Source: Pseudonocardia sp. (GTDB lineage: Bacteria > Actinomycetota > Actinomycetes > Mycobacteriales > Pseudonocardiaceae). Taken from it: DNA of 13,087 bases. Both the position numbers and the translations under genes were made by a program. The notes beneath the pieces are model-generated. The model was not told the origin of the DNA. It searched no databases and saw nothing but the letters and a program-made list of their open reading frames with translations. The stretch covers positions 1 to 13,087 of the forward strand of contig JAKDLE010000019.1 in assembly GCA_030453005.1 (NCBI GenBank), given 5' to 3'. Below, piece after piece: positions 1-13,087 of this stretch. The stretch's first letter is position 1; every line of letters starts with the position of its first letter.

Positions 1-53
1 CTCTCCACATCCCCGGGCGACCGAGGTGTACCCAGCCGGGAAGTGGGCACCAG

Positions 54-59
54 TAGGCT
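54..59 (+). promoter_or_regulatory. Possible -10 element for the mrp operon
   Basis: The hexamer TAGGCT fits the actinobacterial TANNNT -10 pattern and lies about 130 bases before the mrpA start. No convincing -35 is visible 16-19 bases upstream. If used, it would leave a leader of about 120 bases, in which I see no clear riboswitch. The stretch from 1 to 187 holds no gene I can support. A single hexamer match is weak evidence. Confidence 0.25.
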
Positions 60-175
60 GGCAACCGGGACCGATTTGTCCGCTCGGCGTCAGGCGGCCG
101 TGGTGCGGGCGCTCTCGCCTCGAGTGATGACCAACGCGACCGGGTCTCCCCGCCGGCCGCGCCCGTGCGCCGGAG

Positions 176-184
176 AGGAGGTGA
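176..184 (+). promoter_or_regulatory. Strong Shine-Dalgarno deciding the mrpA start
   Basis: AGGAGGTGA matches the anti-Shine-Dalgarno of 16S rRNA over nine bases. It sits six bases (counted from AGGAGG) before GTG at 188. This fixes the mrpA start. The ATG at 184 overlaps the ribosome binding site and is in another frame, so it cannot be the start. Confidence 0.85.
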
Positions 185-187
185 TGC

Positions 188-2575
188 GTGCTCGCACTCG
201 TCGTCGCCCATCTCGCGGTCGCGGGACTGCTGCCGCTCGTCTCCGCCCGCCACCGCCGCGCCGCGTTCGCCGTGGCGGCGGTGCTGCCCGCCGTCACGCT
301 GGCCTGGGCGCTCGGCCACGCCGGTGCGGCGCTCGGGCCGGGGGTGACGAGCACGCTGGCCTGGGCGCCGGCCCTCGGTCTGCAGCTGAGCTTCCGGCTC
401 GACGCCCTCGCGCTCGCGATGGTGGTGCTGGTCTCCGGGCTGGGCGCGGTGATCCTCGTCTACAGCACCGGGTACTTCGGCGCACGCTCCGAGGAGGCCA
501 ACCGGTCCGCGGCGCTGCTGCTCACGTTCGCGGGCGTGATGCTCGGGCTCGTACTGGCCGACGACCTGCTCACCCTCTACGTGTTCTGGGAGCTCACCTC
601 CGTCACCTCCTACCTGCTGATCGGGCAGAGCGGGGAGAAGCGGGAGAGCCGCCGGGCCGCACTGCAGGCGCTGCTGGTCACGATCTTCGGCGGGCTCATG
701 ATGCTGCTGGGGTTCGTGCTGCTCGGCGAGGCCGCGGGCACCTACCGGATCTCCGAGATCGTCGCGGACCCGCCACGCGGTGCGCTCGTCACCGCGGCGC
801 TGCCGCTGATCCTGCTCGGGGCGTTCACGAAGTCCGCGCAGCTGCCGTTCCACCCGTGGCTGCCCGCCGCGATGGTGGCGCCCACGCCCGTGAGCGCCTA
901 CCTGCACGCCGCGTCGATGGTCAAGGCCGGGGTCTACCTGGTGGGGCGCCTGTCGCCCGCGTTCGCCGAGCTCGCGGTGTGGTGGGTGCCGATCGTCGTC
1001 GCCGGGATCGGCACGATGCTGATCGGCGGCTGGCGGGCGCTGGCCGAGACCGATCTCAAACGGGTGCTCGCCTTCGGCACCGTGAGCCAGCTCGGTTTCC
1101 TCATGGTGCTGCTCGGCGTGGGCGGGCGGATCGCCGCGCTCGCCGGCGTCGTGATGCTGCTCGCGCACGGGCTGTTCAAGGCGCCGCTGTTCATGATCGT
1201 CGGAGCCATCGACCACGCCACCGGTACCCGTGACCTGCGCAAGCTCTCCGGTCTGCGGACCTCCCTGCCCGGGCTCACCGTGGCGGGCGCACTCGCCGCG
1301 GCGTCGATGGCGGGTCTGCCGCCGTTCGTCGGGTTCGTCGGCAAGGAGGCGGCGTTCGAGGCGTTCTTGCATGAGGGTGGGGTCCGGGGGTGGCTGATCG
1401 CGCTCGGCCTGCTCGCAGGCTCCGTGCTCACCGCCGCGTACAGCGCGCGCTTCGTGTGGGGGGCGTTCGCGACCAAGCCCGGACGCGCCGCCACCCAGGT
1501 GCCCACGCCCGGGGCGCACACCCCCGGCGCGCTGCTCACCGGCCCGGTCTGGCTGTGCGCCGTGGCCGGGCTCGCGCTCGGCGTCGGCTACCCGACCCTC
1601 GAGGCCCTCGCCGCCTCCTACGCCGCCCAGCACCCGGCCGTTGACGCCGAGGCCGCGGCCTACCACCTCGCACTCTGGCACGGCCTCGGCCTGCCGCTGT
1701 TGTTCTCCGCGGTCGCGATCGGCGGCGGCCTCCTCCTGCACCATCTGCGGACCCGCACCACCCACCTGCACCACCGGAGCCCGCTCGGCGCCCAGCGCGG
1801 GTATGAGGCCACCCTCGAGGGCCTGGAGCGGGCGGCCGTCGGCGTCACGGGGCGGTTGCAGGTCGGCTCGCTGCCCGCGTACCTGGCCACGATCCTGGCG
1901 GTGCTCGTGCTGCTCGTCGGGCCCTCCACGCTCCTGGGCGGCACCTGGCCCAGCGGCCAGGTGCTCTACCACGAGGCCGTACAGGTACCGCTGGCCGCCG
2001 CGGTGATCGTCGCGGCGCTGGCCGTGGCGCGGGCCCGCCGCCGGTTCACCGCGGTGCTGCTCGTGGGCGTCGTCGGCTACGGCGTCGGCGGGCTGTTCGT
2101 CGTCAACGGGGCGCCGGACCTCGCGCTGGCCCAGTTCCTCGTCGAGACACTGTCGCTGGTGGCGTTCGTGTTCGTGCTGCGCAGGCTGCCCGCGAACTTC
2201 ACCGAGCAGCCCTCGCTGCGCCGGGCGCAGCTGTTCAAGGCGGCGCTCGCCACGGTCGGCGGCATCGTCGTGGCCGGGGTCGCCGTGGTGCTCTCCGGTG
2301 CGCGGGTCGGCCCCGCCTCGGCCGCCGACGGCTTCATCGCACTCGCCCCCGACGAGGCGGGCGCCAAGAACATCATCTCCGCGATCCTTGTCGACTTCCG
2401 CGCCCTGGACACCGTCGGCGAGATCGGTGTGCTGTTCGTGGCGGCCGCCGGAGTGGCGAGCCTCGTGCTGGCCACCCGCTACGACCGGCGCGGCGGCGAG
2501 GACGGGCGCGGGGGCCGCACCCCGATGGAGAGCGGACAGGGCAGCCCGCGCCACGAGGAGGACGTGCTCGGATGA
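188..2575 (+). CDS. mrpA: Mrp Na+/H+ antiporter subunit A
   Basis: Largest subunit (795 aa) of the multisubunit Mrp cation/proton antiporter in the cytoplasmic membrane, homologous to complex I subunit NuoL. The antiporter core (about residues 1-450) carries the key charged sites: Glu135 in FWELTS, Lys215 in TKSAQLPFHPWLP, His240 and Lys246 in the following helix (LH..SMVKAG), Lys291 in LKRVLAFG, His327/Lys331 and Lys386 in GFVGKE. The C-terminus adds an MbhD/DUF4040-like part (APDLALAQFLVET, about 642-654) and an MbhE-like part (DFRALDTVGE, 736-745), as in full-length MrpA. Length is close to Bacillus MrpA (about 800 aa), and MrpB is encoded separately rather than fused. The GTG start at 188 is set by a near-perfect Shine-Dalgarno. 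The stop overlaps mrpB (ATGA). First gene of the operon; identity is firm, ion specificity is not readable. Confidence 0.95.
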   Translation: MLALVVAHLAVAGLLPLVSARHRRAAFAVAAVLPAVTLAWALGHAGAALGPGVTSTLAWAPALGLQLSFRLDALALAMVVLVSGLGAVILVYSTGYFGARSEEANRSAALLLTFAGVMLGLVLADDLLTLYVFWELTSVTSYLLIGQSGEKRESRRAALQALLVTIFGGLMMLLGFVLLGEAAGTYRISEIVADPPRGALVTAALPLILLGAFTKSAQLPFHPWLPAAMVAPTPVSAYLHAASMVKAGVYLVGRLSPAFAELAVWWVPIVVAGIGTMLIGGWRALAETDLKRVLAFGTVSQLGFLMVLLGVGGRIAALAGVVMLLAHGLFKAPLFMIVGAIDHATGTRDLRKLSGLRTSLPGLTVAGALAAASMAGLPPFVGFVGKEAAFEAFLHEGGVRGWLIALGLLAGSVLTAAYSARFVWGAFATKPGRAATQVPTPGAHTPGALLTGPVWLCAVAGLALGVGYPTLEALAASYAAQHPAVDAEAAAYHLALWHGLGLPLLFSAVAIGGGLLLHHLRTRTTHLHHRSPLGAQRGYEATLEGLERAAVGVTGRLQVGSLPAYLATILAVLVLLVGPSTLLGGTWPSGQVLYHEAVQVPLAAAVIVAALAVARARRRFTAVLLVGVVGYGVGGLFVVNGAPDLALAQFLVETLSLVAFVFVLRRLPANFTEQPSLRRAQLFKAALATVGGIVVAGVAVVLSGARVGPASAADGFIALAPDEAGAKNIISAILVDFRALDTVGEIGVLFVAAAGVASLVLATRYDRRGGEDGRGGRTPMESGQGSPRHEEDVLG

Positions 2576-3117
2576 CGGCCGGACAGCGCGACGAGCAGGT
2601 GCCCTTCGACGAGTGGGACGTCCCACGCCAGGGCTGGTGGCTGTCGGGGGAGTGCCGCGACTCCTACAGTCGGACGCTGCTGCTGGAGATCGCCACGCGC
2701 ACGCTGTTCCCGACGATGCTGGTGTTCTCGCTGTACCTGCTGCTGGTGGGGCACTACTCGCCCGGTGGCGGGTTCTCCGGCGGCCTGGTGGCGGGGCTGG
2801 CGTTCGTGCTGCGCTACATGGCGGGGGGCGCCGTCGGGCTCGGCGCCGTCGTCACCCTCCGCTCACCGGTCCTCCTCGGGTCCGGTCTGATGATCGCCGT
2901 GCTGACGGGCCTGGCCCCGTTGCTCGTCGGCGCCCCCGCGCTGTCGAGTGCCTACCTCAGCGTCGAGCTGCCCCTGGTCGGCACGGTCTCCTCCCAGACG
3001 AGCCTGCTGCTCGACGTCGGGGTCTACCTGCTGATCGTCGGGGCGGTGCTGGACCTGCTGCGCTCGCTCGGCGGCGGAATCGAACGCGACATGCAGGACG
3101 CGGGTGAGCGGCCGTGA
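2572..3117 (+). CDS. mrpB: Mrp Na+/H+ antiporter subunit B
   Basis: MrpB/MnhB subunit, 181 aa, a small membrane protein needed for assembly and activity of the Mrp complex. The family signature LLVGHYSPGGGFSGGLVAGLAFVLRYMAGG begins near residue 57 and is followed by three further hydrophobic segments. The first 40 or so residues are hydrophilic and charged (GQRDEQVPFDEWDVPRQG), making this longer than Bacillus MrpB (about 140 aa). That extension should lie outside the membrane and I cannot assign it a role. The ATG overlaps the mrpA stop, and AGGAGG at 2556-2561 lies ten bases upstream, so translational coupling to mrpA is likely. The stop overlaps mrpC (GTGA). Confidence 0.92.
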   Translation: MTAGQRDEQVPFDEWDVPRQGWWLSGECRDSYSRTLLLEIATRTLFPTMLVFSLYLLLVGHYSPGGGFSGGLVAGLAFVLRYMAGGAVGLGAVVTLRSPVLLGSGLMIAVLTGLAPLLVGAPALSSAYLSVELPLVGTVSSQTSLLLDVGVYLLIVGAVLDLLRSLGGGIERDMQDAGERP

Positions 3118-3554
3118 TCACCGTCAACGCGACCATGGCACTGACGATCGCCGTGCTGTTCGCCACCGGCTTCTACCTGCTGCTGCAGCGCTCCCTGATG
3201 CGCGTGCTCATCGGCGTCGTCGTACTGGGGCACGGCACCAACCTGCTGCTCCAGCTCGCGGGAGGCCCGCCCGCGGCTCCCCCGATCCTGGGTACCGTGC
3301 CCGCCGAGGCGATCGGCGACCCCCTGCCGCAGGCCCTCGCCCTCACGGCCGTGGTCATCACGTTCGCGCTCACCACGTTCCTGCTGGCCCTGGGTTACCG
3401 CGCGTTCGTCCTGGTCGGGCACGACGAGGTGCAGGACGACATCGAGGACCGCCGCATCGGCACCCAGTCGCTGCCCACGGCCTCCCTGGCCGATCCCGAC
3501 GACGAGGTCGACGAGGCGGCGGACGACGACGTCGAGTCGCAGGCGGGCCGATGA
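3114..3554 (+). CDS. mrpC: Mrp Na+/H+ antiporter subunit C
   Basis: MrpC/MnhC subunit, 146 aa, the counterpart of complex I NuoK. Three hydrophobic segments are visible: about 6-24 (LTIAVLFATGFYLLLQ), 30-49 (VLIGVVVLGHGTNLLLQLA) and 77-100 (LALTAVVITFALTTFLLALG). The motif ..GH..NLL.. and the TAVVI.FA helix are typical. The last 45 residues form an unusually acidic hydrophilic tail rich in Asp and Glu (for example DPDDEVDEAADDDVE), expected in the cytoplasm. GTG overlaps the mrpB stop by four bases, and the mrpD ATG overlaps its stop the same way. Confidence 0.93.
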   Translation: MITVNATMALTIAVLFATGFYLLLQRSLMRVLIGVVVLGHGTNLLLQLAGGPPAAPPILGTVPAEAIGDPLPQALALTAVVITFALTTFLLALGYRAFVLVGHDEVQDDIEDRRIGTQSLPTASLADPDDEVDEAADDDVESQAGR

Positions 3555-5089
3555 CGCCGGACGTGGCGTTGATCGTCCCGTTGCCGGTGCTGCTGCCCCT
3601 GCTGGGCGCCACGGTCACCGTGGTCGGCAGTCGCTCACCCGCGCTGCAGCGGGTCGTCGGCATCGTCACGTTGACCTCGGTGGCGGTGCTCGCCGGGGTG
3701 CTGCTGGTCGTCGCCGACCGGCGCGGGCCGGTGGTGGCGCAGCTCGGTGGCTGGGCGCCGCCCGTCGGCATCGCGCTGGTGGCCGACCGGCTCTCGGCGC
3801 TGCTGCTGCTCGTCTCCACCCTCGTGACGCTGGCGGTGCTCGTCTACGCCATCGACCAGCGCATCGCCGACTACGGCCGCGGCACCGCGAGCACCACGTT
3901 CCATCCGATGTACCTGATGCTCTCGGCGGGGGTGTCGCTGGCCTACCTCACGGGTGACCTGTTCACCCTGTTCGTGGCGTTCGAGCTGATGCTCACCGCG
4001 TCCTACGTGCTGATCACGCGGCGCACCAGTGCGTCGAAGATCCGGGCCGGGATGACATACGTGACGGTCAGCCTGCTGTCGTCGCTGCTGTTCCTCACGG
4101 CCATCGCGCTGGTGTACGCGGCCACCGGCACGGTGAACCTCGCCGACCTCGCCGGGCGGATCGCGCTGCTCCCGGCGGGTCTGGAGACGGTGCTGGGGCT
4201 GATGCTGCTGGTCGTGTTCGGGATCAAGGCCGCGATGGTGCCGCTGCACCTGTGGCTGCCCGACAGCTATCCCAACGCGCCCGGCCCGGTGGCCGCACTG
4301 TTCGCGGGCCTGCTCACCAAGGTCGGCTTCTACGCGATGCTGCGCACCCAGACCCTGCTGTTCCACCGCGACGAGCCCTGGAACCTGCTGCTGGTGCTCG
4401 CCGTGGCCACGATGCTGGTCGGGGCGCTCGGGGCGCTCGCGCAGAACGACCTCAACCGCCTCCTGTCGTTCCTGCTGGTGAGCCACATCGGGTTCATGCT
4501 GTTCGGGCTGGCGGTGTTCAACGCAGCCGGGGTGTCGGGTGCGGCGCTGTACGCGGCCCACCACATCACCGTGCTGGCCACGCTGTTCCTGATCAGCGGT
4601 CTGATCACCCGGCGCACCGGCACCGTGGCCCTGGATCAGATGGGTGGGCTGCTGCGCACCGCGCCCGCACTGGCCGTGCTCTACGCGATCGCCGCGCTCA
4701 CCCTCGCCGGGGTGCCGCCGACGGCCGGGTTCGTCGCGAAGCTGGCGCTGCTGCAGTCAGGCGTCGCGGTCGGGCCGTGGCCCACGATCGTCGCCGGTGT
4801 GGTGGTCGTCGCGAGCCTGCTCACCCTCTACGCGCTGGCCCGGGTGTGGGTCCGGGTGTTCTGGGGCGAGGCCGTGGCACCGCTGCTCGACGACGACCCG
4901 GACGACGAGGTGGTGGTCGGCACGGCCAACACCCCGGCAGCCATGTACGCGGCCACGGGCGGGCTGGTGGCCGTCAGCCTGGCGATCGCGGTGTTCGCGG
5001 GCCCGCTCTCGGCCGTCACCGGACGCGCGGGTGTGGACCTGCTCGAACGCGAGCCCTACCTCGTCGCGGTGCTGGGAGCGCAGTCGTGA
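3551..5089 (+). CDS. mrpD: Mrp Na+/H+ antiporter subunit D
   Basis: MrpD/MnhD, 512 aa, the second large antiporter-like subunit (NuoM/NuoN-related). Key residues in view are Glu145 in FVAFELMLTASY, Lys226 in GIKAAMVPLHLWLPDSYPNAP, Lys257 in GLLTKVGFYAML, and the LNRLLSFLLVSHIGFM stretch equivalent to the later lysine helix. About 14 hydrophobic segments fit the family. The same frame is open further upstream (from 3104) across mrpC, but that part is Arg/His-rich nonsense. The ATG at 3551 overlaps the mrpC stop (ATGA) and begins a normal hydrophobic N-terminus (VALIVPLPVLLPLLGA). A short acidic cytoplasmic loop (LLDDDPDDEVVVG) precedes the last helix. The junction to mrpE is unusual (see the repeat at 5074-5131). 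Confidence 0.94.
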   Translation: MTPDVALIVPLPVLLPLLGATVTVVGSRSPALQRVVGIVTLTSVAVLAGVLLVVADRRGPVVAQLGGWAPPVGIALVADRLSALLLLVSTLVTLAVLVYAIDQRIADYGRGTASTTFHPMYLMLSAGVSLAYLTGDLFTLFVAFELMLTASYVLITRRTSASKIRAGMTYVTVSLLSSLLFLTAIALVYAATGTVNLADLAGRIALLPAGLETVLGLMLLVVFGIKAAMVPLHLWLPDSYPNAPGPVAALFAGLLTKVGFYAMLRTQTLLFHRDEPWNLLLVLAVATMLVGALGALAQNDLNRLLSFLLVSHIGFMLFGLAVFNAAGVSGAALYAAHHITVLATLFLISGLITRRTGTVALDQMGGLLRTAPALAVLYAIAALTLAGVPPTAGFVAKLALLQSGVAVGPWPTIVAGVVVVASLLTLYALARVWVRVFWGEAVAPLLDDDPDDEVVVGTANTPAAMYAATGGLVAVSLAIAVFAGPLSAVTGRAGVDLLEREPYLVAVLGAQS

Positions 5090-5131
5090 CCGCCGACGCA
5101 CTCTCCCTCGCGGAGGCGCAGTCGTGACCGC
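5074..5131 (+). repeat. Duplicated start region between mrpD and mrpE
   Basis: Two copies of a ribosome-binding and start segment lie 38 bases apart. GGGAG plus CGCAGTCGTGACCGC is at 5074-5093, and GGAGG plus CGCAGTCGTGACCGC is at 5112-5131; the exact 16-base match GCGCAGTCGTGACCGC is at 5078-5093 and 5116-5131. Each copy has a purine-rich Shine-Dalgarno seven bases before GTG. The first GTG (5086) overlaps the mrpD stop and the second (5124) is the mrpE start. The remaining 18 bases of the 38-base interval do not resemble the bases after the second copy. Confidence 0.75.
5086..5127 (+). CDS. Possible 13-codon bridging frame between mrpD and mrpE
   Basis: A mini reading frame starts at GTG 5086, four bases overlapping the mrpD stop, and encodes VTADALSLAEAQS. 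It ends at TGA 5125-5127, overlapping the mrpE GTG by four bases. It has its own Shine-Dalgarno-like GGGAG at 5074-5078. It may only pass ribosomes from mrpD to mrpE, keeping the coupling seen at every other junction of the operon, or may be an accident of the duplication. No function is claimed for the peptide. Confidence 0.3.
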   Translation: MTADALSLAEAQS

Positions 5132-5681
5132 GTCGGCACCGCGTGTCGCGCGCTGGCTCAGCGTGCTGTGGCTCGCGGTCGTGTGGGTGCTGCTGTGGGG
5201 CTCGTTCACGCTGCTCACGATCCTGGGCGGGGTGCTCGTGGGGGTAGCGGTGACGGCCCTGTTCCGGACCGCGACGCCCCCTAACCCCCTGCCGCTGCGA
5301 CCGGTGCGACTACTCGCCCTGCTGGGTTTCGTCGCCCGCGACCTCGTCGTCTCCTCCTACGGCGTCAGCTTCCAGACCCTGCGGTACGGCCCCCGCGCCC
5401 GCGGCGCGATCCTGGAGCTGCCGTTGCTGACCAGCTCGGACCGGGTCGTCGCGGTGATCGCCGGCGCCTACACGCTCTCGCCGGGCACCATCGTGCTGCA
5501 GATCGACCACGTCTCCGGGCTCTGGTACATCTACGTCCTCGGGCCCCGGGACGCGAGGCAGATCGAGGAGGCGCGCACCTCTGCTCTGGAGATGCAGCGC
5601 CGGGTGCTCTCGGCGTTCGGCACGCCCGACGAGATCGCGGAGGCGCGGAGAATGCTGCTGGGACGCCGAGGAGCGCCATGA
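5124..5681 (+). CDS. mrpE: Mrp Na+/H+ antiporter subunit E
   Basis: MrpE/MnhE subunit, 185 aa, a peripheral membrane subunit of the antiporter. After a short N-terminus, hydrophobic helices span about 9-30 (LSVLWLAVVWVLLWGSF) and 31-48 (LLTILGGVLVGVAVTALF). Family features follow: FVARDLVVSSYGV, ILELPL.TSSDRVVAVIAGAYTLSPGT (the usual LTPGT region) and WYIYVL. The start is GTG 5124, with GGAGG seven bases upstream; the open frame upstream of it lies within mrpD and is not MrpE-like. It does not overlap mrpD, alone among the mrp genes, because of the duplicated start region. The C-terminal 30 residues are charged and helical. The stop overlaps mrpF (ATGA). Confidence 0.92.
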   Translation: MTASAPRVARWLSVLWLAVVWVLLWGSFTLLTILGGVLVGVAVTALFRTATPPNPLPLRPVRLLALLGFVARDLVVSSYGVSFQTLRYGPRARGAILELPLLTSSDRVVAVIAGAYTLSPGTIVLQIDHVSGLWYIYVLGPRDARQIEEARTSALEMQRRVLSAFGTPDEIAEARRMLLGRRGAP

Positions 5682-5944
5682 ACGCCGTCTTCGGGATCGT
5701 GCTCGTGATGCTGCTGGTCTCCGGTCTGCTGACGCTCGTCCGCCTGTTCCGCGGCCCCCACACCCTCGACCGGATCGCCGCGCTCGACGTGTTCGTCGTG
5801 CTGATCGTGGCCGCCACCGCCGTGTACGTGGCCTACTACCGCGACACCGCCAACATCGCGCTGCTGGTGGCGTTCTCGCTGGTGGCGTTCGTCGGGTCGG
5901 CCTCCGCGGCCCGGCTGACCGAGCGCCGGGAGCGGCACCGGTGA
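5678..5944 (+). CDS. mrpF: Mrp Na+/H+ antiporter subunit F
   Basis: MrpF/MnhF subunit, 88 aa, three transmembrane segments at about 2-21, 34-54 and 61-78. It has the family motif RGPHTLDRIAALD (residues 25-37), with Asp31 and Asp37 at the conserved positions at the start of the second helix. The ATG overlaps the mrpE stop, and GAGGAG at 5668-5673 lies four bases upstream. The stop overlaps mrpG (GTGA). Length is normal for the family. Confidence 0.93.
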   Translation: MNAVFGIVLVMLLVSGLLTLVRLFRGPHTLDRIAALDVFVVLIVAATAVYVAYYRDTANIALLVAFSLVAFVGSASAARLTERRERHR

Positions 5945-6306
5945 CGCGGGTCGTGCTCGACGGCGCCGCCGCGGTGCTGCTGCTCGTCGGTGCGCTGCAG
6001 TGCCTCCTCGGCGGGCTGGGCGTGCTGCGCCTGCCCAGTCTCCTGTCGCGGATGCAGGCCGCCACCAAGCCGCAGACCCTCGGGCTCCTGCTGATCCTGG
6101 CCGGCGCGGCGCTGCGGCTCCCGCTCGACAGCGCCGTCACGCTGCTGCTCGTCGCGGTCTTCCAGGTGATCACCGCACCGGTGCTCTCACAGCTGCTGTC
6201 CCGGTCGGCCTACCGGAGTGGGGCCGTGCACCCGGAGATCCTCGCCGCCGACGAGCTCGCCGACCGCATGCCGCGCGAGGGTCCCGAACCGCCGCAGGCT
6301 CCCTGA
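5941..6306 (+). CDS. mrpG: Mrp Na+/H+ antiporter subunit G
   Basis: MrpG/MnhG subunit, 121 aa, the last gene of the operon. Three hydrophobic segments occur at about 5-24, 41-58 and 62-84. The family motif [25 protein letters not shown] spans about residues 21-45, including the typical LRxP, Arg and TLG positions. GTG 5941 overlaps the mrpF stop, with GGGAG at 5928-5932 eight bases upstream. The C-terminal 25 residues are hydrophilic and Pro/Glu-rich. No terminator-like hairpin is visible in the 26 bases before the next gene, so read-through is possible. Confidence 0.92.
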
Positions 6307-6320
6307 AACCGCCCACGTCC

Positions 6321-6326
6321 TAAGCT
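6321..6326 (+). promoter_or_regulatory. -10 element for a leaderless gamma-CA-like mRNA
   Basis: TAAGCT fits TANNNT and ends six bases before GTG 6333. That is the spacing expected if transcription starts at the start codon itself. There is no Shine-Dalgarno before this GTG, which supports a leaderless message. No -35 consensus is visible. Confidence 0.5.
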
Positions 6327-6332
6327 CGGCCC

Positions 6333-6854
6333 GTGCCTGTCTACGCCCTCGGCGACATCGAGCCCGACATCCATCCCGACGCCTACGTCCACCCGGACGC
6401 CGTGGTGATCGGCCACGTGACCATCGGCGCCGAGGCGTCGGTGTGGCCCACCGCCGTGCTGCGCGGCGACGACGGGCACATCGTGGTGGGTGCGCGAACC
6501 AGTGTCCAGGACGGGTCGATCATCCACTGCACCGCCACCCAGCCGACGATCGTCGGCGAGGGGGTGACGGTGGGGCACAACGTGCACATCGAGGGCGCCA
6601 CCATCGGCGACGGAGCGTTGATCTCGTCGGGTTCGGTGGTGCTCAACGGGTCCTCGGTCGGCGCGGGTGCCGTCGTCGCGGCAGGCGCGGTGGTCTCGCC
6701 CGACGCGCGGATCCCGCCGCGGGCGATGGCGCTGGGCATCCCGGCCCGCGTGCGGGAGGGCTACGAGGTGCCCGAGGGCGCGTTCGCCTACGCGGTGGCG
6801 TCCTACATCCAGCGTGGGAAGCGCTTCCGCGCCGAGCTGCGGCGGCTGTCGTAG
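6333..6854 (+). CDS. Gamma-carbonic-anhydrase-like hexapeptide-repeat protein
   Basis: 173 aa left-handed beta-helix protein of the YrdA/CaiE/gamma-carbonic-anhydrase group. Hexapeptide repeats run from about residue 14 to 125 (for example [30 protein letters not shown]), followed by the usual C-terminal helix. Aligned to Methanosarcina Cam, Arg44, Asp46, Gln59, His65 and His82 match the conserved arginine, aspartate, glutamine and first two zinc ligands. The third ligand position (Cam His122) is Glu87, in NVHIEGA instead of the usual HGC. A nearby His85 might substitute. Carbonic anhydrase activity is therefore doubtful; other small-molecule binding or a structural role is possible. The GTG start is preceded by a -10 box, not a ribosome binding site. 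It lies 26 bases after mrpG and shares one base with ung. Confidence 0.85.
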
Positions 6855-7561
6855 TGGCCTCCGCCGAGGAACGAGGCGGCCCCGGGCCGAGACCGCTCAG
6901 CGAGGTCGTCGAGGCCGGGTGGGCGCGGGCGCTGGAGCCGGTCGCACCGGTGATCGCCGACATGGGGGGGTTCCTCCGCGCCGAGATGGGTGCCGGGCGC
7001 CGCTACCTGCCCGCCGGGGCGAACGTGCTGCGCGCGTTCAGCCGGCCCTTCGATGCGGTGCGGGTGCTCGTCGTCGGCCAGGACCCGTACCCGACACCGG
7101 GACACGCGATCGGGCTGTCGTTCTCCGTGGCGCCCGAGACGCGGCCGGTGCCGCGGTCGCTGGCCAACATCTTCCGGGAGTACAGCGCGGACCTGGGCCA
7201 CCCCACGCCGTCCACGGGCGACCTGACGCCGTGGGCCGAGCAGGGGGTGCTGCTGCTCAACCGCGTGCTGACCGTCGAGCCGGGCAACCCCGGCTCACAC
7301 CGCGACAAGGGCTGGGAGAAGGTCACCGAGCAGGCCATCCGCGCGCTGGTGGACCGCGACGGCGAGCCGCTGGTCGCGATCCTCTGGGGACGCGACGCCC
7401 GCAACCTCGCCCCGCTGCTGGTCGACGTGCCGCTGGTGGAGTCGGCGCACCCGAGCCCGATGAGCGCCGATCGGGGCTTCTTCGGCTCGAAGCCGTTCAG
7501 CCGGGCCAACGAGCTGCTCGCCGACCTCGGCGGCGACCCGGTGGAGTGGAAGCTGCCGTGA
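6854..7561 (+). CDS. ung: Uracil-DNA glycosylase, family 1
   Basis: 235 aa enzyme that removes uracil from DNA, the first step of base excision repair of deaminated cytosine, which matters in a GC-rich genome. Motifs are complete: GQDPYP at 75-80 with catalytic Asp77, the uracil-stacking Phe90 in [16 protein letters not shown] (127-136) with Asn136, GSHRDKGWE (147-155), LWG (177-179), and the DNA-intercalation loop HPSPMS (199-204) with His199. The last motif is usually HPSPLS; the Leu-to-Met change keeps the intercalating apolar residue. The start chosen is GTG 6854, which shares its G with the TAG stop of the upstream gene. The frame stays open further upstream but that segment overlaps other genes. 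Coupled translation is likely; no clear Shine-Dalgarno is seen. Confidence 0.95.
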
Positions 7562-7574
7562 GACATCTCCGACA

Positions 7575-7627
7575 CGGGCGAACGGCACTCTGAGCCAACC
7601 AGGTTAGCCCGGAGTGCCGTTCGCTCG
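7575..7627. terminator. 53-base palindrome between convergent ung and rpmB
   Basis: A near-perfect palindrome is centred on 7601. Its outer arms GCGAACGGCACTC (7578-7590) and GAGTGCCGTTCGC (7612-7624) match exactly, and pairing continues inward to AACC/GGTT and outward by three pairs. Of 26 pairs, only 7596/7606 and 7593/7609 are mismatched on the plus strand, with wobbles at 7591/7611 and 7577/7625. It lies 14 bases after the ung stop and 18 bases past the rpmB stop, so it can end both transcripts. There is no U-tract, as is common in high-GC actinobacteria. It could also be a dispersed palindromic repeat. Confidence 0.7.
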
Positions 7628-7644
7628 GTGCGTCGAAGGCTCGC

Positions 7645-7836
7645 TCAGGAGCGGACGACCTTGCCCGCCTTGAGGCAGGAGGTGCACACGTTCTGGCGAC
7701 GGCGGTTGCCGCCGTCGACACGGGTGCGCACGGTCTGGATGTTGGGGTTCCACCGACGCTTGGTGCGGCGGTGCGAGTGCGAGACGTTCATGCCGAAGCC
7801 CGGACCCTTGCTACAGACGTCGCAGACGGCAGCCAC
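7645..7836 (-). CDS. rpmB: Ribosomal protein L28, zinc-binding form
   Basis: 63 aa large-subunit ribosomal protein bL28. The sequence is characteristic: [29 protein letters not shown] and [12 protein letters not shown]. Cys5/Cys8 and Cys51/Cys54 form two CxxC pairs, so this is the zinc-binding C+ form rather than the zinc-independent paralogue. The start taken is GTG at 7836-7834 (MAAVCDVC, as in other actinobacterial L28), because GAGGAG at 7851-7846 lies nine bases upstream of it. A GTG three codons earlier (7845) would leave almost no gap after the Shine-Dalgarno. The gene stands alone on the minus strand, convergent with ung and divergent from the DAK2 gene. Confidence 0.93.
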
Positions 7837-7856
7837 GTCGGACACTCCTCGATTCG

Positions 7857-7876
7857 GGGGTACGCCGGGATACCCC
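7857..7876 (-). promoter_or_regulatory. Inverted repeat in the rpmB leader
   Basis: GGGGTA at 7857-7862 and TACCCC at 7871-7876 are six-base arms around an eight-base spacer. They lie between the proposed rpmB -10 and its Shine-Dalgarno. It could be a leader hairpin or an operator-like site. It does not resemble an AT-rich Zur box. Six-base arms could arise by chance. Confidence 0.25.
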
Positions 7877-7890
7877 GGTCGTGAGCCGCA

Positions 7891-7896
7891 AGACTA
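7891..7896 (-). promoter_or_regulatory. Possible rpmB -10 element
   Basis: Read on the minus strand, 7896-7891 is TAGTCT, matching TANNNT. It would place the transcript start near 7884 and give rpmB a leader of about 48 bases that includes the GAGGAG ribosome binding site. No clear -35 is visible. It faces away from the DAK2 gene promoter in the shared 110-base divergent region. Confidence 0.4.
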
Positions 7897-7933
7897 CCTG
7901 CGGCGTCCGACGCGGCGCACACCCCCCGGTCAC

Positions 7934-7939
7934 TACCCT
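7934..7939 (+). promoter_or_regulatory. -10 element for a leaderless DAK2-gene mRNA
   Basis: TACCCT fits TANNNT and ends seven bases before GTG 7947. The GGAG at 7942-7945 is only one base from the GTG, too close to serve as a Shine-Dalgarno. The arrangement suggests a transcript beginning at or next to the start codon. No -35 consensus is visible. Confidence 0.5.
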
Positions 7940-7946
7940 GCGGAGC

Positions 7947-9590
7947 GTGCCCCCGACCCTCGACGCCACGCTGCTCACCGGCTGGGCGCGGGCCGCCGTG
8001 CGGGCCCTGGAACGGCACCGCACCGAGATCGACCGGATCAACGTCTTCCCGGTCCCCGACGGCGACACCGGCACCAACCTGCTGCTGACGATGCGGTCGG
8101 CGGCCGAGGAGATCTGCCCTGTGGCGACCGACCCGGCCACGCCGGAGTCGGGCGTGGCGGCGGCACTGGCCCGGGGCGCGCTGCTGGGGGCCCGCGGCAA
8201 CTCCGGGGTGATCCTCTCGCAGGTGCTGCGCGGGGTCGCCGACGCGGTCGCGGCGAAGGCCGGGCCGTCCGCCGGGGGCCGGGTGCTCGCCGACGGGCTG
8301 GGCCGGGCCCACCGCCTGGCCACAGCGGCGGTCAGCAGGCCACGGGAGGGCACGGTGCTCTCGGTGCTCTCCGCGGCGGCCGCGGCGGCGGTGGCGGTGG
8401 GGTCCGACCGGCTCGACGCCGTGGCGGCGGCCGCCGCCGACGCCGCCCGCGACGCACTGGGGGAGACCACCGGACAGCTCCCGGAGCTGGCCCGCGCCGG
8501 TGTCGTGGACGCAGGCGGCCTGGGTCTCTACCTGGTGCTCGACGCACTGGCCGCCCTGGTCACCGTCCGGCCCGCGGCCGAGGTGCCCGTGCCCACCGGG
8601 TCCCGGGGGCCCACCCGGGGCCGCGACGCGCTCGTCGCCGCCCGGGAGGTCGGCTCGCCGGTGTTCGACTACGAGGTGATGTACCTGCTCGACGCCCCCG
8701 CGAGCGCCGTCGCGGTGCTGCGGGCGGAGCTGGAGACGTTGGGCGACTCGGTGGCGCTCGTCGGGTCAGGGTGCGGCCCAGACGGGGCGCGCGCCGGGGT
8801 GGCGACGTGGAACGTGCACGTCCACTGCACCGACGTCGGCGCCGCGATCGAGGCGGGCATCGCGGCCGGGCGCCCGCACCGGATCACCGTGGTGCGTTTC
8901 GCCGACCAGCTCACGGTGGCCCCGGACCGGTTCCGGCGGGCCCGTGCGGTGCTGCTCGTCGCCGACGGCACCGAGCTCACGGAGCTGGCCGAGTCGGCGG
9001 GGGCCGACGTCGTGGCGCGCCGGGACGCGACGCAGGAGCAGCTCGTCACCGCGCTCACCCGGACCGGGTCCCGCCACGTGGTGCTGCTCCCGGCCGACTC
9101 CGAGCTGACCGGCGTGGCCGAACGCGCCGCCGCCGTCGCGCGCCTCGACGGGCAGGAGGTGCTGGTGCTGCCCACCGCGTCGGTGTTGCCGGGGCTCGCA
9201 GCGCTGGCCGTGCACGATCCCGAGCGCCACGCCACCGACGACGTCGTCGCGATGGCCGAGGCCGCGGCGTCCACCCGCACGGCGGCGCTGCTCGTCGCCG
9301 AGACCGAGGCGCTCACCTGGGTGGGCCGCTGCGAGCCCGGTGACGTGCTCGGCGTCTCCGACGGCGAGGTGGTGCTGATCGCCCCGGATCTCGCTGTCGG
9401 TGCCCTGTGGTTGGCTCATCGCATGCTCACCGCGGGTGGCGAGATCGTCACGGCGCTGCTCGGGGAGGGGGCCGACGACGCCCTCGGGGCAGGTCTGGCC
9501 GCCGACCTGCGCCGCACTCACCCAGAGGTCGACGTGGCCGTGCACCGCGGCGGGCAGACCGACTATCCGCTGGTCCTGGGGGTGGAGTGA
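7947..9590 (+). CDS. DAK2-domain, FakA/YloV-like kinase-related protein
   Basis: 547 aa protein matching the length and layout of Firmicute FakA/YloV, the ATP-binding subunit of fatty acid kinase. The N-terminal DAK2 domain (about 5-200) has INVFPVPDGDTGTN (31-44), with Asp38, Asp40 and Asn44 as expected Mg-ATP ligands, GARGNSGVILSQ (81-92) and REGTVLSV (133-140). The middle domain includes FDYEVMYLL (240-248) and WNVHVHCTDVG (288-298), and the C-terminal domain ends GGQTDYPLVLGVE. The Cys in the usual GYCTE motif of the middle domain is absent (DYEVM), while His291 and His293 remain. No FakB/DegV partner is in the window, so the substrate is unproven. Start is GTG 7947 just after a -10 box; the open frame upstream to 7881 lies in promoter DNA. 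The stop overlaps recG (GTGA). Confidence 0.87.
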   Translation: MPPTLDATLLTGWARAAVRALERHRTEIDRINVFPVPDGDTGTNLLLTMRSAAEEICPVATDPATPESGVAAALARGALLGARGNSGVILSQVLRGVADAVAAKAGPSAGGRVLADGLGRAHRLATAAVSRPREGTVLSVLSAAAAAAVAVGSDRLDAVAAAAADAARDALGETTGQLPELARAGVVDAGGLGLYLVLDALAALVTVRPAAEVPVPTGSRGPTRGRDALVAAREVGSPVFDYEVMYLLDAPASAVAVLRAELETLGDSVALVGSGCGPDGARAGVATWNVHVHCTDVGAAIEAGIAAGRPHRITVVRFADQLTVAPDRFRRARAVLLVADGTELTELAESAGADVVARRDATQEQLVTALTRTGSRHVVLLPADSELTGVAERAAAVARLDGQEVLVLPTASVLPGLAALAVHDPERHATDDVVAMAEAAASTRTAALLVAETEALTWVGRCEPGDVLGVSDGEVVLIAPDLAVGALWLAHRMLTAGGEIVTALLGEGADDALGAGLAADLRRTHPEVDVAVHRGGQTDYPLVLGVE

Positions 9591-11743
9591 TAGATCTCGA
9601 CTCGCCGTTGTCGCCGCTTCTCGGGAAGAAGGCCGCCGACGCGCTGGCCACGCAGCTGGAGCTGCACACCGTCGGCGACCTGGTGCGGCACTACCCGCGC
9701 CGCTACGTCGACCGCGGCAAGCTCACCGACATCGCCGGGCTGGAGATCGGTGAGCACGCCACGCTCGTCGCGCAGGTGGAAAAGACCGCGCTGCGCGACA
9801 TGCGGGCGCGCCGCGGGAAGCTGCTGGCCGTCGTCATCCGCGACGACAAGGGCGCCACGCTCGACTGCACGTTCTTCAACGGCCACAAGGTGGCGCACCT
9901 GATCCATCCCGGCGTGCGGGCGATGTTCGCGGGCAAGGTCGGGGTGTTCAACCACAACCTGCAGCTCACCCACCCGCAGTTCGAGCCGCTCGACGAGACC
10001 GACGAGGTGCGGCCGTTCCTGTCGGTCTACCCGGCCACGGGCAAGCTCAGCTCGCAGGAGATCGCCCGCTGCGCCCGTCAGGTGCTCGACGTGCTCGACG
10101 AGCCGACCGACCCGCTGCCCGAGTCGATCCGCCGCCGCGAGGGGCTCGCCGAGCTGGGCCGGGCGCTGCGCCGCATCCACGTGCCCGAGTCCGAGGCCGA
10201 CATCTTCGCCGCCCGCAACCGCCTGGTCTGGGACGAGGCGATGGGCGTGCAGCTCGCGCTCGCGCTGCGCAGGCAGAACACGATGACGCGCCCGGCGCCC
10301 GCCTGCCCGCCCGTGCCGGGCGGCCTGCTCGACGCGTTCGACGCCCGGCTGCCGTTCACCCTCACCGCGGGACAGGAGTCCGTGGGGGCCGAGGTCGCCG
10401 CCGACCTGGCGCGCAGCCACCCGATGAACCGGCTCGTGCAGGGCGACGTCGGCGCCGGAAAGACGATCCTCGCGCTGCGGGCGATGCTGCAGGTGCTCGA
10501 CTCGGGTGCGCAGGCGGCACTGCTCGCGCCCACCGAGGTGCTCGCCGCGCAGCACGCCCGCTCGCTGCGCGCGATGCTCGGTCCGCTCGCGCAGGCGGGC
10601 GAGCTGGGCGCGCCGGAGCACGCCACCCGCGTCACGTTGCTCACCGGGTCGCTCGGGGCGGCGGCGAAGCGCAAGGCACTGCTCGACGCGCAGTCCGGCG
10701 AGGCCGGCATCGTCGTCGGCACGCACGCCCTGATCCAGGACCGCGTCGGGTTCGCCGACCTGGGGCTCGTCGTCGTCGACGAGCAGCACCGGTTCGGCGT
10801 GGAGCAGCGCGACGCGCTACGCGGGCGCGGCGAGCGGGCGCCGCACATGCTGGTCATGACGGCCACGCCGATCCCGCGCACGGTCGCGATGACCGTCTAC
10901 GGCGACCTGGAGATCTCCGCGCTGCGCGAGCTGCCCCGGGGCCGCTCGCCCATCGCCACCACGGTCGTCCCGGTGGCGGAGAAGCCCAGCTGGTTTCCCA
11001 AGGTGTGGCGGCGGGTCCGCGACGAGGTCGAGGCCGGGCACCAGGCCTACGTCGTGTTCCCCCGGGTCGGGGAGGACGCCCACGAGGACGCCGCCGAACC
11101 CCCGCCCGACGACGACGAGGAGAAGCGTCGCCCACCGCTGGCCGTCCTCGACATCGCGCCGCGGCTGACCGATGGCGCGCTGGAGGGCCTGCGGGTGGGC
11201 ATCCTGCACGGCAAGCTCCCCGCCGACGAGAAGGACACCGTGATGCGGGCGTTCGAGGCGGGCGAGCTCGACGTGCTGCTGGCCACCACCGTCATCGAGG
11301 TGGGCGTCGACGTCCCCAACGCCACGGCCATCGTGATCCTCGACGCCGAGCGCTTCGGGCTCTCCCAGCTCCACCAGCTCCGCGGGCGCGTCGGCCGGGG
11401 CGCGGCCCCCGGCGTGTGCCTGCTGGTCAGCGAGGCGCCCGCGGCCACCACCGCACGCGAGCGGCTCGACGCGGTCGCCGGCACCACCGACGGCTTCGAG
11501 CTCGCCCGCCTCGACCTGGAGCTGCGCCGCGAAGGCGACGTGCTCGGCGCGCTGCAGTCCGGCCGCCGCTCGGGCCTGCGGCTGCTGTCGCTGCTGCGCC
11601 ACGAGGAGATCATCGCCAAGGCGCAGGTCTACGCCCTGCACCTGGTGGACGCCGACCCCGGCCTCACCGCCAGCCCCGGCCTCGCCGCGCTGGTCGGCGA
11701 GATCGTCGCCGAGGACCGCGCGGAGTACCTCGACAAGGTCTGA
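9587..11743 (+). CDS. recG: ATP-dependent DNA helicase RecG
   Basis: 718 aa branch-migrating helicase that remodels stalled replication forks and recombination intermediates. An N-terminal wedge/OB part (about 1-250) binds the junction. The superfamily 2 motor carries Walker A GDVGAGKT (286-293), DEQH (398-401, in VVDEQHRFGVEQ), TATPIPR (425-431), TTVIEVGVDVP, and QLHQLRGRVGRG with Gln597, Arg601 and Arg604. A hydrophilic acidic insert (DAHEDAAEPPPDDDEEKRRP) lies between the VVFPRV strand and the conserved LHGKLPADEK; a loop of this sort is familiar in actinobacterial RecG. The start is GTG 9587, overlapping the DAK2-gene stop; upstream extension of the frame would lie inside that gene. The downstream end runs into the first long palindrome ten bases after the stop. 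Length is normal. Confidence 0.96.
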   Translation: MIDLDSPLSPLLGKKAADALATQLELHTVGDLVRHYPRRYVDRGKLTDIAGLEIGEHATLVAQVEKTALRDMRARRGKLLAVVIRDDKGATLDCTFFNGHKVAHLIHPGVRAMFAGKVGVFNHNLQLTHPQFEPLDETDEVRPFLSVYPATGKLSSQEIARCARQVLDVLDEPTDPLPESIRRREGLAELGRALRRIHVPESEADIFAARNRLVWDEAMGVQLALALRRQNTMTRPAPACPPVPGGLLDAFDARLPFTLTAGQESVGAEVAADLARSHPMNRLVQGDVGAGKTILALRAMLQVLDSGAQAALLAPTEVLAAQHARSLRAMLGPLAQAGELGAPEHATRVTLLTGSLGAAAKRKALLDAQSGEAGIVVGTHALIQDRVGFADLGLVVVDEQHRFGVEQRDALRGRGERAPHMLVMTATPIPRTVAMTVYGDLEISALRELPRGRSPIATTVVPVAEKPSWFPKVWRRVRDEVEAGHQAYVVFPRVGEDAHEDAAEPPPDDDEEKRRPPLAVLDIAPRLTDGALEGLRVGILHGKLPADEKDTVMRAFEAGELDVLLATTVIEVGVDVPNATAIVILDAERFGLSQLHQLRGRVGRGAAPGVCLLVSEAPAATTARERLDAVAGTTDGFELARLDLELRREGDVLGALQSGRRSGLRLLSLLRHEEIIAKAQVYALHLVDADPGLTASPGLAALVGEIVAEDRAEYLDKV

Positions 11744-11753
11744 CCGGGTCCGG

Positions 11754-11817
11754 ATGATCGCCAGGACCGGGACATCCCCGCCGCCGGTGGCGGGGATGTC
11801 CCGATCCTGACGATCAT
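11754..11817. repeat. 64-base palindrome, copy 1 (after recG)
   Basis: A near-perfect inverted repeat centred between 11785 and 11786 on CCGG. Of 32 symmetric pairs, two are C/A mismatches on the plus strand (11767/11804 and 11761/11810) and one is G/T (11783/11788). The core reads GGGACATCCCCGCC with GGCGGGGATGTCCC as its partner. It starts ten bases after the recG stop and could terminate recG. It shares 51 of 64 positions with copy 2 at 12737-12800 in the same orientation. The right arm contains an ATG (11816) in frame with the nuclease gene. Confidence 0.9.
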
Positions 11818-11863
11818 GGGGGGCGAGTTCGGCGAAACGGGCCCGCCACCGGCGCAGGCGCGG

Positions 11864-11869
11864 CATCCT
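11864..11869 (+). promoter_or_regulatory. Weak -10-like hexamer before the nuclease gene
   Basis: CATCCT ends six bases before ATG 11876, the same placement as the -10 boxes of two other leaderless candidates in this window. It matches only part of TANNNT. No Shine-Dalgarno is visible before this ATG. Confidence 0.25.
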
Positions 11870-11875
11870 GCGTCG

Positions 11876-12760
11876 ATGTCGATCGACCATGTCGTCGCCC
11901 GTCAGAACGGCGTCATCAGCCTCGCGCAGGCGCTGGAGAACGGTGTCTCCGCCCGGACCGTGCAGCGTCACGCGAGTGAGGGCACCTGGCGTCGCCTGCG
12001 GCCCGCGGTCTACTTGGTGGGCGGGCACCGGCACGACGACGCGGCGGAGGTCCGCGCGGTCTCGCTGTGGGCGGGGGAGCGGGCCACAGTCAGCGGCCCG
12101 GCGGCCGCGTTCTGGCACGACATGCTGCCGCGACTGCCCGACGTCGTCGATGTGACGGTGCCCGCCGGTGCGAAACCCCGACCGCAGCCCGGCGTCCGGG
12201 TCCGGCGCCGGGACCTGCACTGGCAGGACAGGGTCAAGCTGCACGGCATGTGGGTGTCCGACGCGCCGCTGGCCGCGCTGGAGACGGCCGTCACCCTGCC
12301 GGACGGGTCGGCGTTCCTCGACCGCGCCCTGCAGAAGCACGTGCGGTTTCCGGCGCTGTACCGGGCCTACTGCCGCGGCATCGGACGTTCCGGGTGGTCG
12401 CGGGCCGGTGAGCTGATCACGGCGTCGGCGGACCGGGCGGAGTCGGCGGCCGAGCGATTGCTGGTCAAGGTGCTCCGGGAGGCCCGGATCGACGGCTGGG
12501 CACTCGGGCACCCGTTCGAGCGATACACGATCGACCTGGCGTTCCCGGCCGCTCGGGTCGCCATCGAGGTGGACGGCTGGGCGTGGCACGTCGACGTCGA
12601 GCGTTTCCGCGCCGACCGGCGCAAGGGCAACGCGATCACCCGGGCCGGCTGGGACCTGCTGCGCTTCACCTGGCACGAGCTGGACGGCGACCCCGCCGCG
12701 GTCGTAGCCGAGATCCTGGAGACGCTGCAGTCGAGGAAGATCGGCGGAACCGGGACATGA
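11876..12760 (+). CDS. AbiEi-type HTH plus DUF559/Vsr-like nuclease fusion
   Basis: 294 aa two-domain protein. Residues 3-48 (VVARQNGVISLAQALENGVS..TVQRH...GTWRRLRPAVY) match the winged-helix domain at the N-terminus of AbiEi-family antitoxins. A middle part of about 130 residues resembles the rest of such proteins. Residues about 186-285 form a DUF559/Vsr-like PD-(D/E)xK nuclease domain: Glu189/Glu193 in the first helix, Asp220 in IDLAFP, Glu231 and Asp233 in AIEVDGWAWH, then RRKGNAI..AGWDLLRFTW. The active site looks intact. ATG 11876 is preferred to in-frame ATG 11816, which lies in the palindrome and would add a Gly/Pro-rich, non-family segment. The last eight codons and the stop lie inside palindrome copy 2. 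There is no second toxin or antitoxin gene beside it. DNA binding and cleavage are inferred; the biological role is unknown. Confidence 0.82.
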   Translation: MSIDHVVARQNGVISLAQALENGVSARTVQRHASEGTWRRLRPAVYLVGGHRHDDAAEVRAVSLWAGERATVSGPAAAFWHDMLPRLPDVVDVTVPAGAKPRPQPGVRVRRRDLHWQDRVKLHGMWVSDAPLAALETAVTLPDGSAFLDRALQKHVRFPALYRAYCRGIGRSGWSRAGELITASADRAESAAERLLVKVLREARIDGWALGHPFERYTIDLAFPAARVAIEVDGWAWHVDVERFRADRRKGNAITRAGWDLLRFTWHELDGDPAAVVAEILETLQSRKIGGTGT

Positions 12761-12801
12761 GCGCCACCGGTGGCGCTCATGTCCCGATCCTGGCGATCTT
12801 C
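12736..12801. repeat. Long palindrome, copy 2 (end of nuclease gene)
   Basis: An inverted repeat centred between 12768 and 12769 on CCGG, with perfect pairing from the centre out to 12751/12786 (CGGGACATGAGCGCCA with its partner). It then has mismatches at 12750/12787, 12748/12789 and 12744/12793, a wobble at 12746/12791, and eight more pairs (12736-12743 with 12794-12801). It includes the nuclease stop codon (12758-12760) and ends 12 bases before the stop of the minus-strand gene. It could therefore terminate both convergent transcripts. It is the same repeat family and orientation as copy 1. Confidence 0.88.
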
Positions 12802-12813
12802 AGAGGTCGGACG

Positions 12814-13087
12814 TCAGGTGGGGAGGGCTCCGCGGGCGGCGGCGTCCAGGGCCGCCGCGGCGGTGCGGGGCAGGTGGACCACCCCGGCGGCGTCGAGCCG
12901 GGCGAGCTCGGTGCGGGCGCGGGAGTAGGCGGCCAGCCGCTCCGGCTCGTGGTCGGAGTCGCGGGCCGTGGTGAGCAGCTTGATCACCTTCTCGACGGTG
13001 CGCCGCTCGGCGGGGGAGAGGCCGGAGAGCCGGATGCGGTCGGCGGCCTCACGGGCGGCCCGCCAGGCGCGCTCGGCCGACTCGACG
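12814..13087 (-). CDS. Unidentified protein, C-terminal part
   Basis: The last 90 residues of a minus-strand gene whose 5' end lies beyond the window; stop is TGA at 12816-12814. The sequence is Ala/Arg/Glu-rich and looks helical, with a recognisable stretch SGLSPAERRTVEKVIKLL near residues 21-38 of the visible part and HEPERLAAYSRARTELARL further on, ending RGALPT. There are no Cys residues and no hydrophobic membrane segment. The codons keep the strong GC third-position bias of the neighbouring genes, and the frame has no stop through 90 codons, which supports it being real. I do not recognise the family. It converges on the nuclease gene across palindrome copy 2. Confidence 0.6.
   Translation of the reverse strand, partial: VESAERAWRAAREAADRIRLSGLSPAERRTVEKVIKLLTTARDSDHEPERLAAYSRARTELARLDAAGVVHLPRTAAAALDAAARGALPT

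Follow-up and report, generated by a model that had tools for sequence, protein, structure and literature searches.

The window analysed here is a 13,087-nucleotide stretch of a Pseudonocardia metagenome-assembled genome (contig JAKDLE010000019.1, positions 1–13,087, forward strand). Beside recG, it carries a unit that consists of a single nuclease gene bounded by two long palindromes. This palindrome–nuclease–palindrome arrangement is a recurrent module, found at differing chromosomal sites in Pseudonocardia and its relatives, in Mycobacteriaceae and Nocardiaceae, and on one Tsukamurella plasmid. Solo palindromes lie scattered, chiefly between genes and mostly in genomes that also encode a matching nuclease. 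The unit appears to be a selfish DNA element of a kind not yet described; no prior description was found among the titles and abstract starts of the open-licence papers listed, which for the broad topics were the top matches. We favor, with a probability of about 55%, the reading that it belongs to a family of one-gene, palindrome-bounded selfish elements, whose nuclease would bind and cut DNA and thereby home.

The original prediction held that two long palindromes in the same orientation bound one gene, and both were confirmed. The left palindrome spans 11754–11817 (ATGATC...GATCAT, 60 nt from GATC to GATC) and the right one 12736–12801. Their identity is high, as had been claimed, although the count is 52 of 64 positions instead of 51 (best ungapped register, 11752–11815 against 12735–12798). 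Single-strand DNA folds calculated for both strands of each palindrome gave values of −29.4 to −34.7 kcal/mol (z = −9.0 to −10.9), and none of 200 shuffles folded as well in any of the four tests. The nuclease gene (11876–12760, forward strand, 294 residues) is preceded by a leader (11818–11875, forward strand), presumably the promoter region. Its start codon is probably at 11876 instead of 11816, because many homologues begin at that point and the codon model selects it. The stop codon (12758–12760) is held by the right palindrome. The tight fit between the neighbors was also verified: the left palindrome begins 10 nt past the stop of recG (9587–11743, forward strand), and 12 nt separate the end of the right one from the stop codon of a convergent host gene (12814–13087, reverse strand, incomplete at the window end).

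The encoded protein had been described as a fusion of an AbiEi-like module with a DUF559/Vsr-like nuclease. The Pfam scan agreed, with AbiEi_4 at 25.5 bits (barely passing the cut-off of 25) and DUF559 at 42.4 bits (cut-off 20.6). The AbiEi-like module comprises residues 1–185 (11876–12430, forward strand), and the EDxHD-type nuclease domain comprises residues 188–289 (12437–12742, forward strand). PADLOC calls the N-terminus AbiEi, and these 185 residues match AbiEi (6y8q) over most of its length. The fold of the protein matches AbiEi and Vsr-like nucleases and is of the homing endonuclease type. Pfam scanning of the window protein and four homologues returned only AbiEi-type and DUF559/MTES_1575 families and no Y1 (HUH) transposase. 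No transposase was found by Pfam scan within the unit. An adjoining gene for the AbiEii nucleotidyltransferase toxin was not found, the unit being one gene, with its convergent neighbor left outside the domain scan. The AbiEi–DUF559 family is large, and its current names only denote a type IV antitoxin domain, DUF559, or a 'very-short-patch-repair endonuclease' protein.

The association of palindromes with such genes was evaluated on 41 regions (602,922 bases), comprising the window and 40 homologue regions (38 from same-genus relatives and two from its own genome), all at least 45% identical. The homologue regions were picked from a longer match list, leaving out several truncated or interrupted matches and weaker matches from other genera. 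GATC-bounded palindromes were defined as 54–72 nt long with a score of at least 12, and hairpins of any end sequence had to score at least 14. Palindrome enrichment at the nuclease genes, which had been set as a check beforehand, was observed: 58 GATC-bounded palindromes lay beside the 41 genes versus 19 elsewhere in the 603 kb. The Markov-shuffled control contained one and the reversed sequence none. Of the distant GATC-bounded palindromes scoring at least 14, 11 of 13 were no more than 1.3 kb from the gene start. Counted regardless of end sequence, hairpins numbered 21 in 16.4 kb beside the genes versus 27 in 547 kb elsewhere. A right palindrome is present in 26 elements; in 16 of them its TGATC end supplies the stop codon, and in three more, the window unit among them, the stop codon lies further inside the palindrome. 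The left and right flanks of the same element resembled each other with a mean similarity of 35.5, as compared to 16.5 for permuted pairs (SD 0.9, maximum 21.1 of 10,000), and the own pair was strictly the best in its row for 24 of the 41 elements. By eye, the own-genome unit C890 and the C359 unit of relative G023 apparently share the same neighbor gene, in opposite orientation and with different cores. Short palindrome arrays, with a spacing of approximately 80–100 nt, stand beside the nuclease at L101, L102, L105, and L112.

To these 41 loci we added 57 Pseudonocardiales loci from the wider genome scan described below, and removal of proteins at least 90% identical reduced the 98 to 68 elements. 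At a palindrome score of at least 11, a left palindrome was detected in 47, a right one in 39, both in 32, and either in 54. The length from GATC to GATC was 60–62 nt in 85 of 86 cases, within a search range of 54–72 nt. The left and right copies of one element were 0.82 identical (n = 32), compared with 0.50 between elements, and were equally long in 31 of the 32 elements. The similarities of nucleases and palindromes correlated, with a Mantel r of 0.328 (permuted SD 0.054, maximum 0.194 of 2000), in line with the proposed relation of the nuclease to its palindromes.

The module extends to other genera, and NCBI taxonomy treats Pseudonocardiales and Mycobacteriales as separate orders. We compiled 81 loci from the best 80 of 445 confirmed loci in a genome scan and one Tsukamurella plasmid locus. 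Hairpins scoring at least 14 numbered 38 near the genes, in 36 kb, versus four far from them, in 352 kb. For 80 of these loci (L176 was too short), left–right similarity was 31.4 for own pairs versus 13.5 for permuted pairs (SD 0.47). The 99th percentile of other pairs was exceeded by 12 of 23 mycobacterial or nocardial loci and by 35 of the other 57 (56 Pseudonocardiales and the Tsukamurella locus). The relatives in Mycobacterium, Rhodococcus, and Tsukamurella have the same architecture with other palindrome sequences. The ends are mostly TGATC...GATCA in Pseudonocardia; in mycobacteria they are mostly GCGATTT...AAATCGC, with varying cores. A Rhodococcus homologue (L235) is preceded by a 43-nt palindrome and followed by a related one of 41 nt, with neither GATC nor GATTT ends. 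Thus, the idea of a hairpin-bounded one-gene element with a nuclease related to its palindromes is supported by enrichment, co-divergence, and recurrence in other genera.

In the leader, 21 of 24 mycobacterial, nocardial, and Tsukamurella elements (L211–L239 and L160) contain a GGAAC-N15–19-CGTC pattern of the extracytoplasmic function (ECF) sigma type; the opposite strand gave no match. The pattern is a candidate SigM-like consensus, and the nuclease of these elements may be stress-induced. Because the GGAAC-N-CGTC match was found in the leader of just 21 of 98 Pseudonocardiales rows (duplicates included), an ECF-type promoter was not used as a defining feature.

Comparison of orthologous sites revealed occupied and empty states. 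Among the genomes compared, the unit is at recG only in its own genome (G000) and in G005. Empty recG sites, for which a check had been proposed, do exist: G006, with the closest recG (93%), lacks the unit, and the convergent gene adjoins recG in many genomes without it. The spacer between the two genes was measurable at 49 of 60 loci and was at most 20 nt in 16. One palindrome of another core occupies the spacer of G080, and GATC palindromes lie further downstream in G081 and G011 (spacer unmeasured). As for orthologues at the same site without hairpins, which the original prediction held would speak against it, the only same-site orthologue found (G005, at recG) keeps its palindromes. In two further relatives (L126 of G007 and L142 of G009), other palindromic repeats take up the recG spacer, which may therefore be a site where repeats commonly settle.

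A second site is downstream of leuS. In 14 of 19 mycobacterial and nocardial genomes, all 14 of them Mycobacteriaceae, leuS is followed by the same gene. The site between them holds a full unit in five (988–1001 nt), a solo palindrome in four (48–61 nt, one degenerate), and neither of the type in five. G042 (solo) and G043 (full) have near-identical leuS host flanks, and the palindrome of the former matches the right copy of the latter at 47 of 53 positions and the left copy at 44. Three of the five genomes with neither hold a different GTGAATC-type dyad or its remnant; this GTGAATC...GATTCAC-type sequence (L280, L281, and L283, in G049, G048, and G045, respectively) occupies the spacer where others carry the unit.

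Within its own genome (4.45 Mb, 72% complete), the window palindrome family occurs at 12 places on 11 contigs, and two of these copies bound the nuclease gene. None of the ten solo copies lies inside genes called by the codon model, and four are between divergent genes. One solo copy (L010) has a nuclease C-terminus alongside (E = 4e-4 against the 10 loci) that agrees at 15 of 30 residues; the final ~7 residues of this remnant are encoded by the palindrome itself, and 11 of 23 are identical outside it. The genome contains two further full-length homologues, C890 (66%) and C81 (49%), whose GATC-bounded palindromes have other cores and are located on both sides of C890 and, at the score threshold used, on the right of C81. 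The window core is present in 6 of 41 genomes. Another core had 18 matches, at least two of which resemble coding sequence, in G001, the holder of its nuclease, and 0–4 matches in each of the remaining 40 genomes (reversed control, 0–3).

The mycobacterial core TTTCGGTGCG...CGCACCGAAA was found in 7 of the 19 genomes in 55 copies, all of them 45 nt long though the pattern allowed other lengths. For 12 of the 19 genomes, the flanks of all 25 homologues of at least 60% identity were read, and their cores were judged by eye. The six genomes with a nuclease bearing that core had 8, 15, 9, 9, 9, and 0 exact copies, and the six without a matching nuclease had 3, 2, 0, 0, 0, and 0. A second, matching nuclease was predicted in advance for G047, G048, and G050; it was found in G047 and not in G048 or G050. 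An 800-kb census of G001 yielded 30 GATC palindromes (reversed, 0), 22 of them outside called genes although genes fill 87% of the sample. Outside genes, 20 of the 22 measured 59–62 nt; inside genes, two of eight were of that length. Of the 22 outside genes, ten are at least 0.70 identical to the palindromes of two resident units, and by eye another four look like the L117/L118 type. The 800-kb sample contained no nuclease homologue. Scaled up, the census corresponds to roughly 190 palindromes per genome (an extrapolation).

These features suggest a possible life cycle. The AbiEi-like module, as a dimer, would read the ~60-bp dyad, and the EDxHD nuclease would break DNA at or near it. A broken solo palindrome could then be repaired from a palindrome–gene–palindrome copy, and the gene would thereby enter that site, as in homing. 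If the two palindromes recombined with each other, the gene would be lost and a solo copy would stay behind; repeated breakage and repair may seed palindromes in new intergenic sites. The original prediction further proposed that the nuclease acts on its palindromes in the same way as the REP-associated tyrosine transposases (RAYTs) act on repetitive extragenic palindromic (REP) sequences. This part is chemically unsupported, as the gene encodes no HUH transposase. A hydrolase of the PD-(D/E)xK type makes no covalent intermediate; therefore, a RAYT-like strand transfer is unlikely.

The unit resembles REP/RAYT systems in how it appears to work, and possibly homing endonucleases, yet it fails a defining test of each. 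According to PMC2817692, RAYTs are flanked by two REPs and co-evolve with them, and REP number correlates with RAYT presence. The unit is similar to such REPtrons (TnpAREP) in having a single gene between two related palindromes, in the dispersal of palindromes between genes, in gene–palindrome co-divergence, and in a palindrome abundance that tracks the cognate gene (small samples, exceptions G044, G048, and G050). It differs in its PD-(D/E)xK/EDxHD-type hydrolase and AbiEi-like module in place of the HUH tyrosine transposase, in lacking the GTAG foot, and in its longer palindromes (about 53–66 nt versus 20–50 nt for REPs, PMC8266576). With EDxHD homing endonucleases it shares the EDxHD/Vsr-type nuclease domain and, at leuS, occupied and unoccupied alleles of one site (between species). 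One such enzyme, I-Bth0305I (3r3p), dimerizes on a target of nearly 60 bp, as stated in PMC3943268. Unlike these enzymes, no intron or intein was seen around the gene, and the presumed target is a dispersed palindrome that is whole at both gene ends. Insertion of a homing endonuclease destroys its target; if the palindrome is the target, no such destruction occurs here. The N-terminal match to AbiEi relates the protein to AbiE type IV toxin–antitoxin systems, but the module is fused to a nuclease and the unit has no AbiEii gene. The unit resembles integron attC cassettes in combining a gene with an imperfect palindrome that overlaps the stop codon; in contrast, the unit has palindromes at both ends, and these differ from element to element. 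At about even odds, the elements are a counterpart of REP/RAYT that evolved on its own, is based on a nuclease, and spans at least two actinobacterial orders (Pseudonocardiales and Mycobacteriales). Here, a dimeric AbiEi–EDxHD nuclease would recognize its own 53–64-bp palindrome, home into solo palindromes by break repair, and seed tens to hundreds of them per genome, with subfamilies switching palindrome together with nuclease.

Several observations weigh against the selfish-element reading. We infer binding, cutting, and homing by the nuclease from sequence. A whole palindrome at both ends would stay cuttable, unlike a classical homing site, and the element must therefore tolerate or control self-cutting. 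The states seen at leuS could reflect loss as well as gain, and no target-site duplication, a feature of insertion sequences and miniature inverted-repeat transposable elements (MITEs), could be resolved because the empty sites come from diverged species. No detectable palindrome was present in 14 of the 68 Pseudonocardiales elements, and no left–right match above the 99th percentile in 11 of 23 mycobacterial or nocardial and 22 of 57 other loci. G044 has a matching nuclease but no exact dispersed copies, and G048 and G050 have copies without a matching nuclease. The GATC rule was derived from the loci on which it was then counted, although the any-end hairpin counts do not use it. The Mantel correlation is equally expected under plain vertical descent, and left–right matching is therefore the stronger point. 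Base covariation over 55 palindrome copies was weak; hence, a folded hairpin is not favored over a double-stranded dyad.

Among the alternatives, we consider it unlikely that the gene is a stand-alone nuclease of defense or toxin–antitoxin origin, with the left palindrome as operator, the right one as 3' end, an autoregulating AbiEi-like module, and solo copies as scars of lost genes. The PADLOC label on the N-terminus fits this view, as does the left copy adjoining the promoter-like pattern in most mycobacterial rows. AbiEi itself binds oriT, at a sequence similar to its promoter palindromes (PMC11062541). The remnant at L010 could be such a scar; however, no convincing remnant accompanies the other nine own solo copies, some of which are near contig ends. 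The approximately 20 intergenic palindromes of 59–62 nt in the G001 sample, which has no nuclease homologue, are also many for scars, and an operator role gives no need for a second copy at the stop codon, equal in length in 31 of 32 elements. Improbable, too, is that the host has domesticated the nuclease as a caretaker, which would trim or resolve palindromes spreading by other means. Few close nuclease copies but many solo palindromes per genome, and the patchy presence at recG and leuS, would agree with this role, which accounts poorly for units at many different sites and for left and right palindromes that are alike within an element but differ from those of other elements.

Slightly less probable again is mobilization of the palindromes in trans by an unrelated transposase (RAYT, IS, or integrase), with the nuclease as a passenger. 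Palindrome size and dispersal resemble REPs or MITEs, but the palindrome sequence tracks the nuclease subfamily and, mostly, nuclease presence. The plain alternative named in the original prediction, common genomic terminators by chance beside an unrelated gene, has very little left in its favor. Palindromes often follow stop codons, and 7 of the 22 outside-gene palindromes in the G001 sample are between convergent genes. Nevertheless, 4 of the 10 own solo copies lie between divergent genes, and a simple scan gave no terminator-like site (a weak test, as shuffles give 0.2). This plain form does not survive the left–right matching and the enrichment at the nuclease; a secondary terminator role is possible.

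Mobile-element sources outside the chromosome were also considered. No relative was found among viral contigs, phages gave one partial match in 50,697 records, and 12 of 72,556 plasmid records matched, only one of them covering at least 80% of the query. With so few matches, a phage or plasmid origin is unsupported. Rfam returned seven matches for 11400–13087, every one far under the gathering score, and no tRNA was found within the window. By eye, the genes at 188–6306 resemble an Mrp/Mnh-type Na+/H+ antiporter operon; these are followed by others and then by recG, and are unrelated to the palindrome–nuclease unit. Four DUF559 homologues of ~30% identity (L277, L268, L269, and L276) were inspected by eye. 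At L277, GAGCGCTCA...TGAGCGCTC palindromes flank the gene on both sides, and the other three have palindrome-like stretches close to the gene ends. The palindrome arrangement may thus extend to a second, distant nuclease family.

If the selfish-element reading is true, these units would add to bacterial selfish DNA a class that stands beside REP/RAYT and relies on a hydrolytic nuclease in place of a transposase, and the origin of many intergenic actinobacterial palindromes would be explained. The AbiEi–DUF559 family would gain a testable substrate, as most of the genes examined have a candidate target on one or both sides. The paired nucleases and palindromes of many subfamilies would also lend themselves to studying how the specificity of a DNA-cutting enzyme changes.
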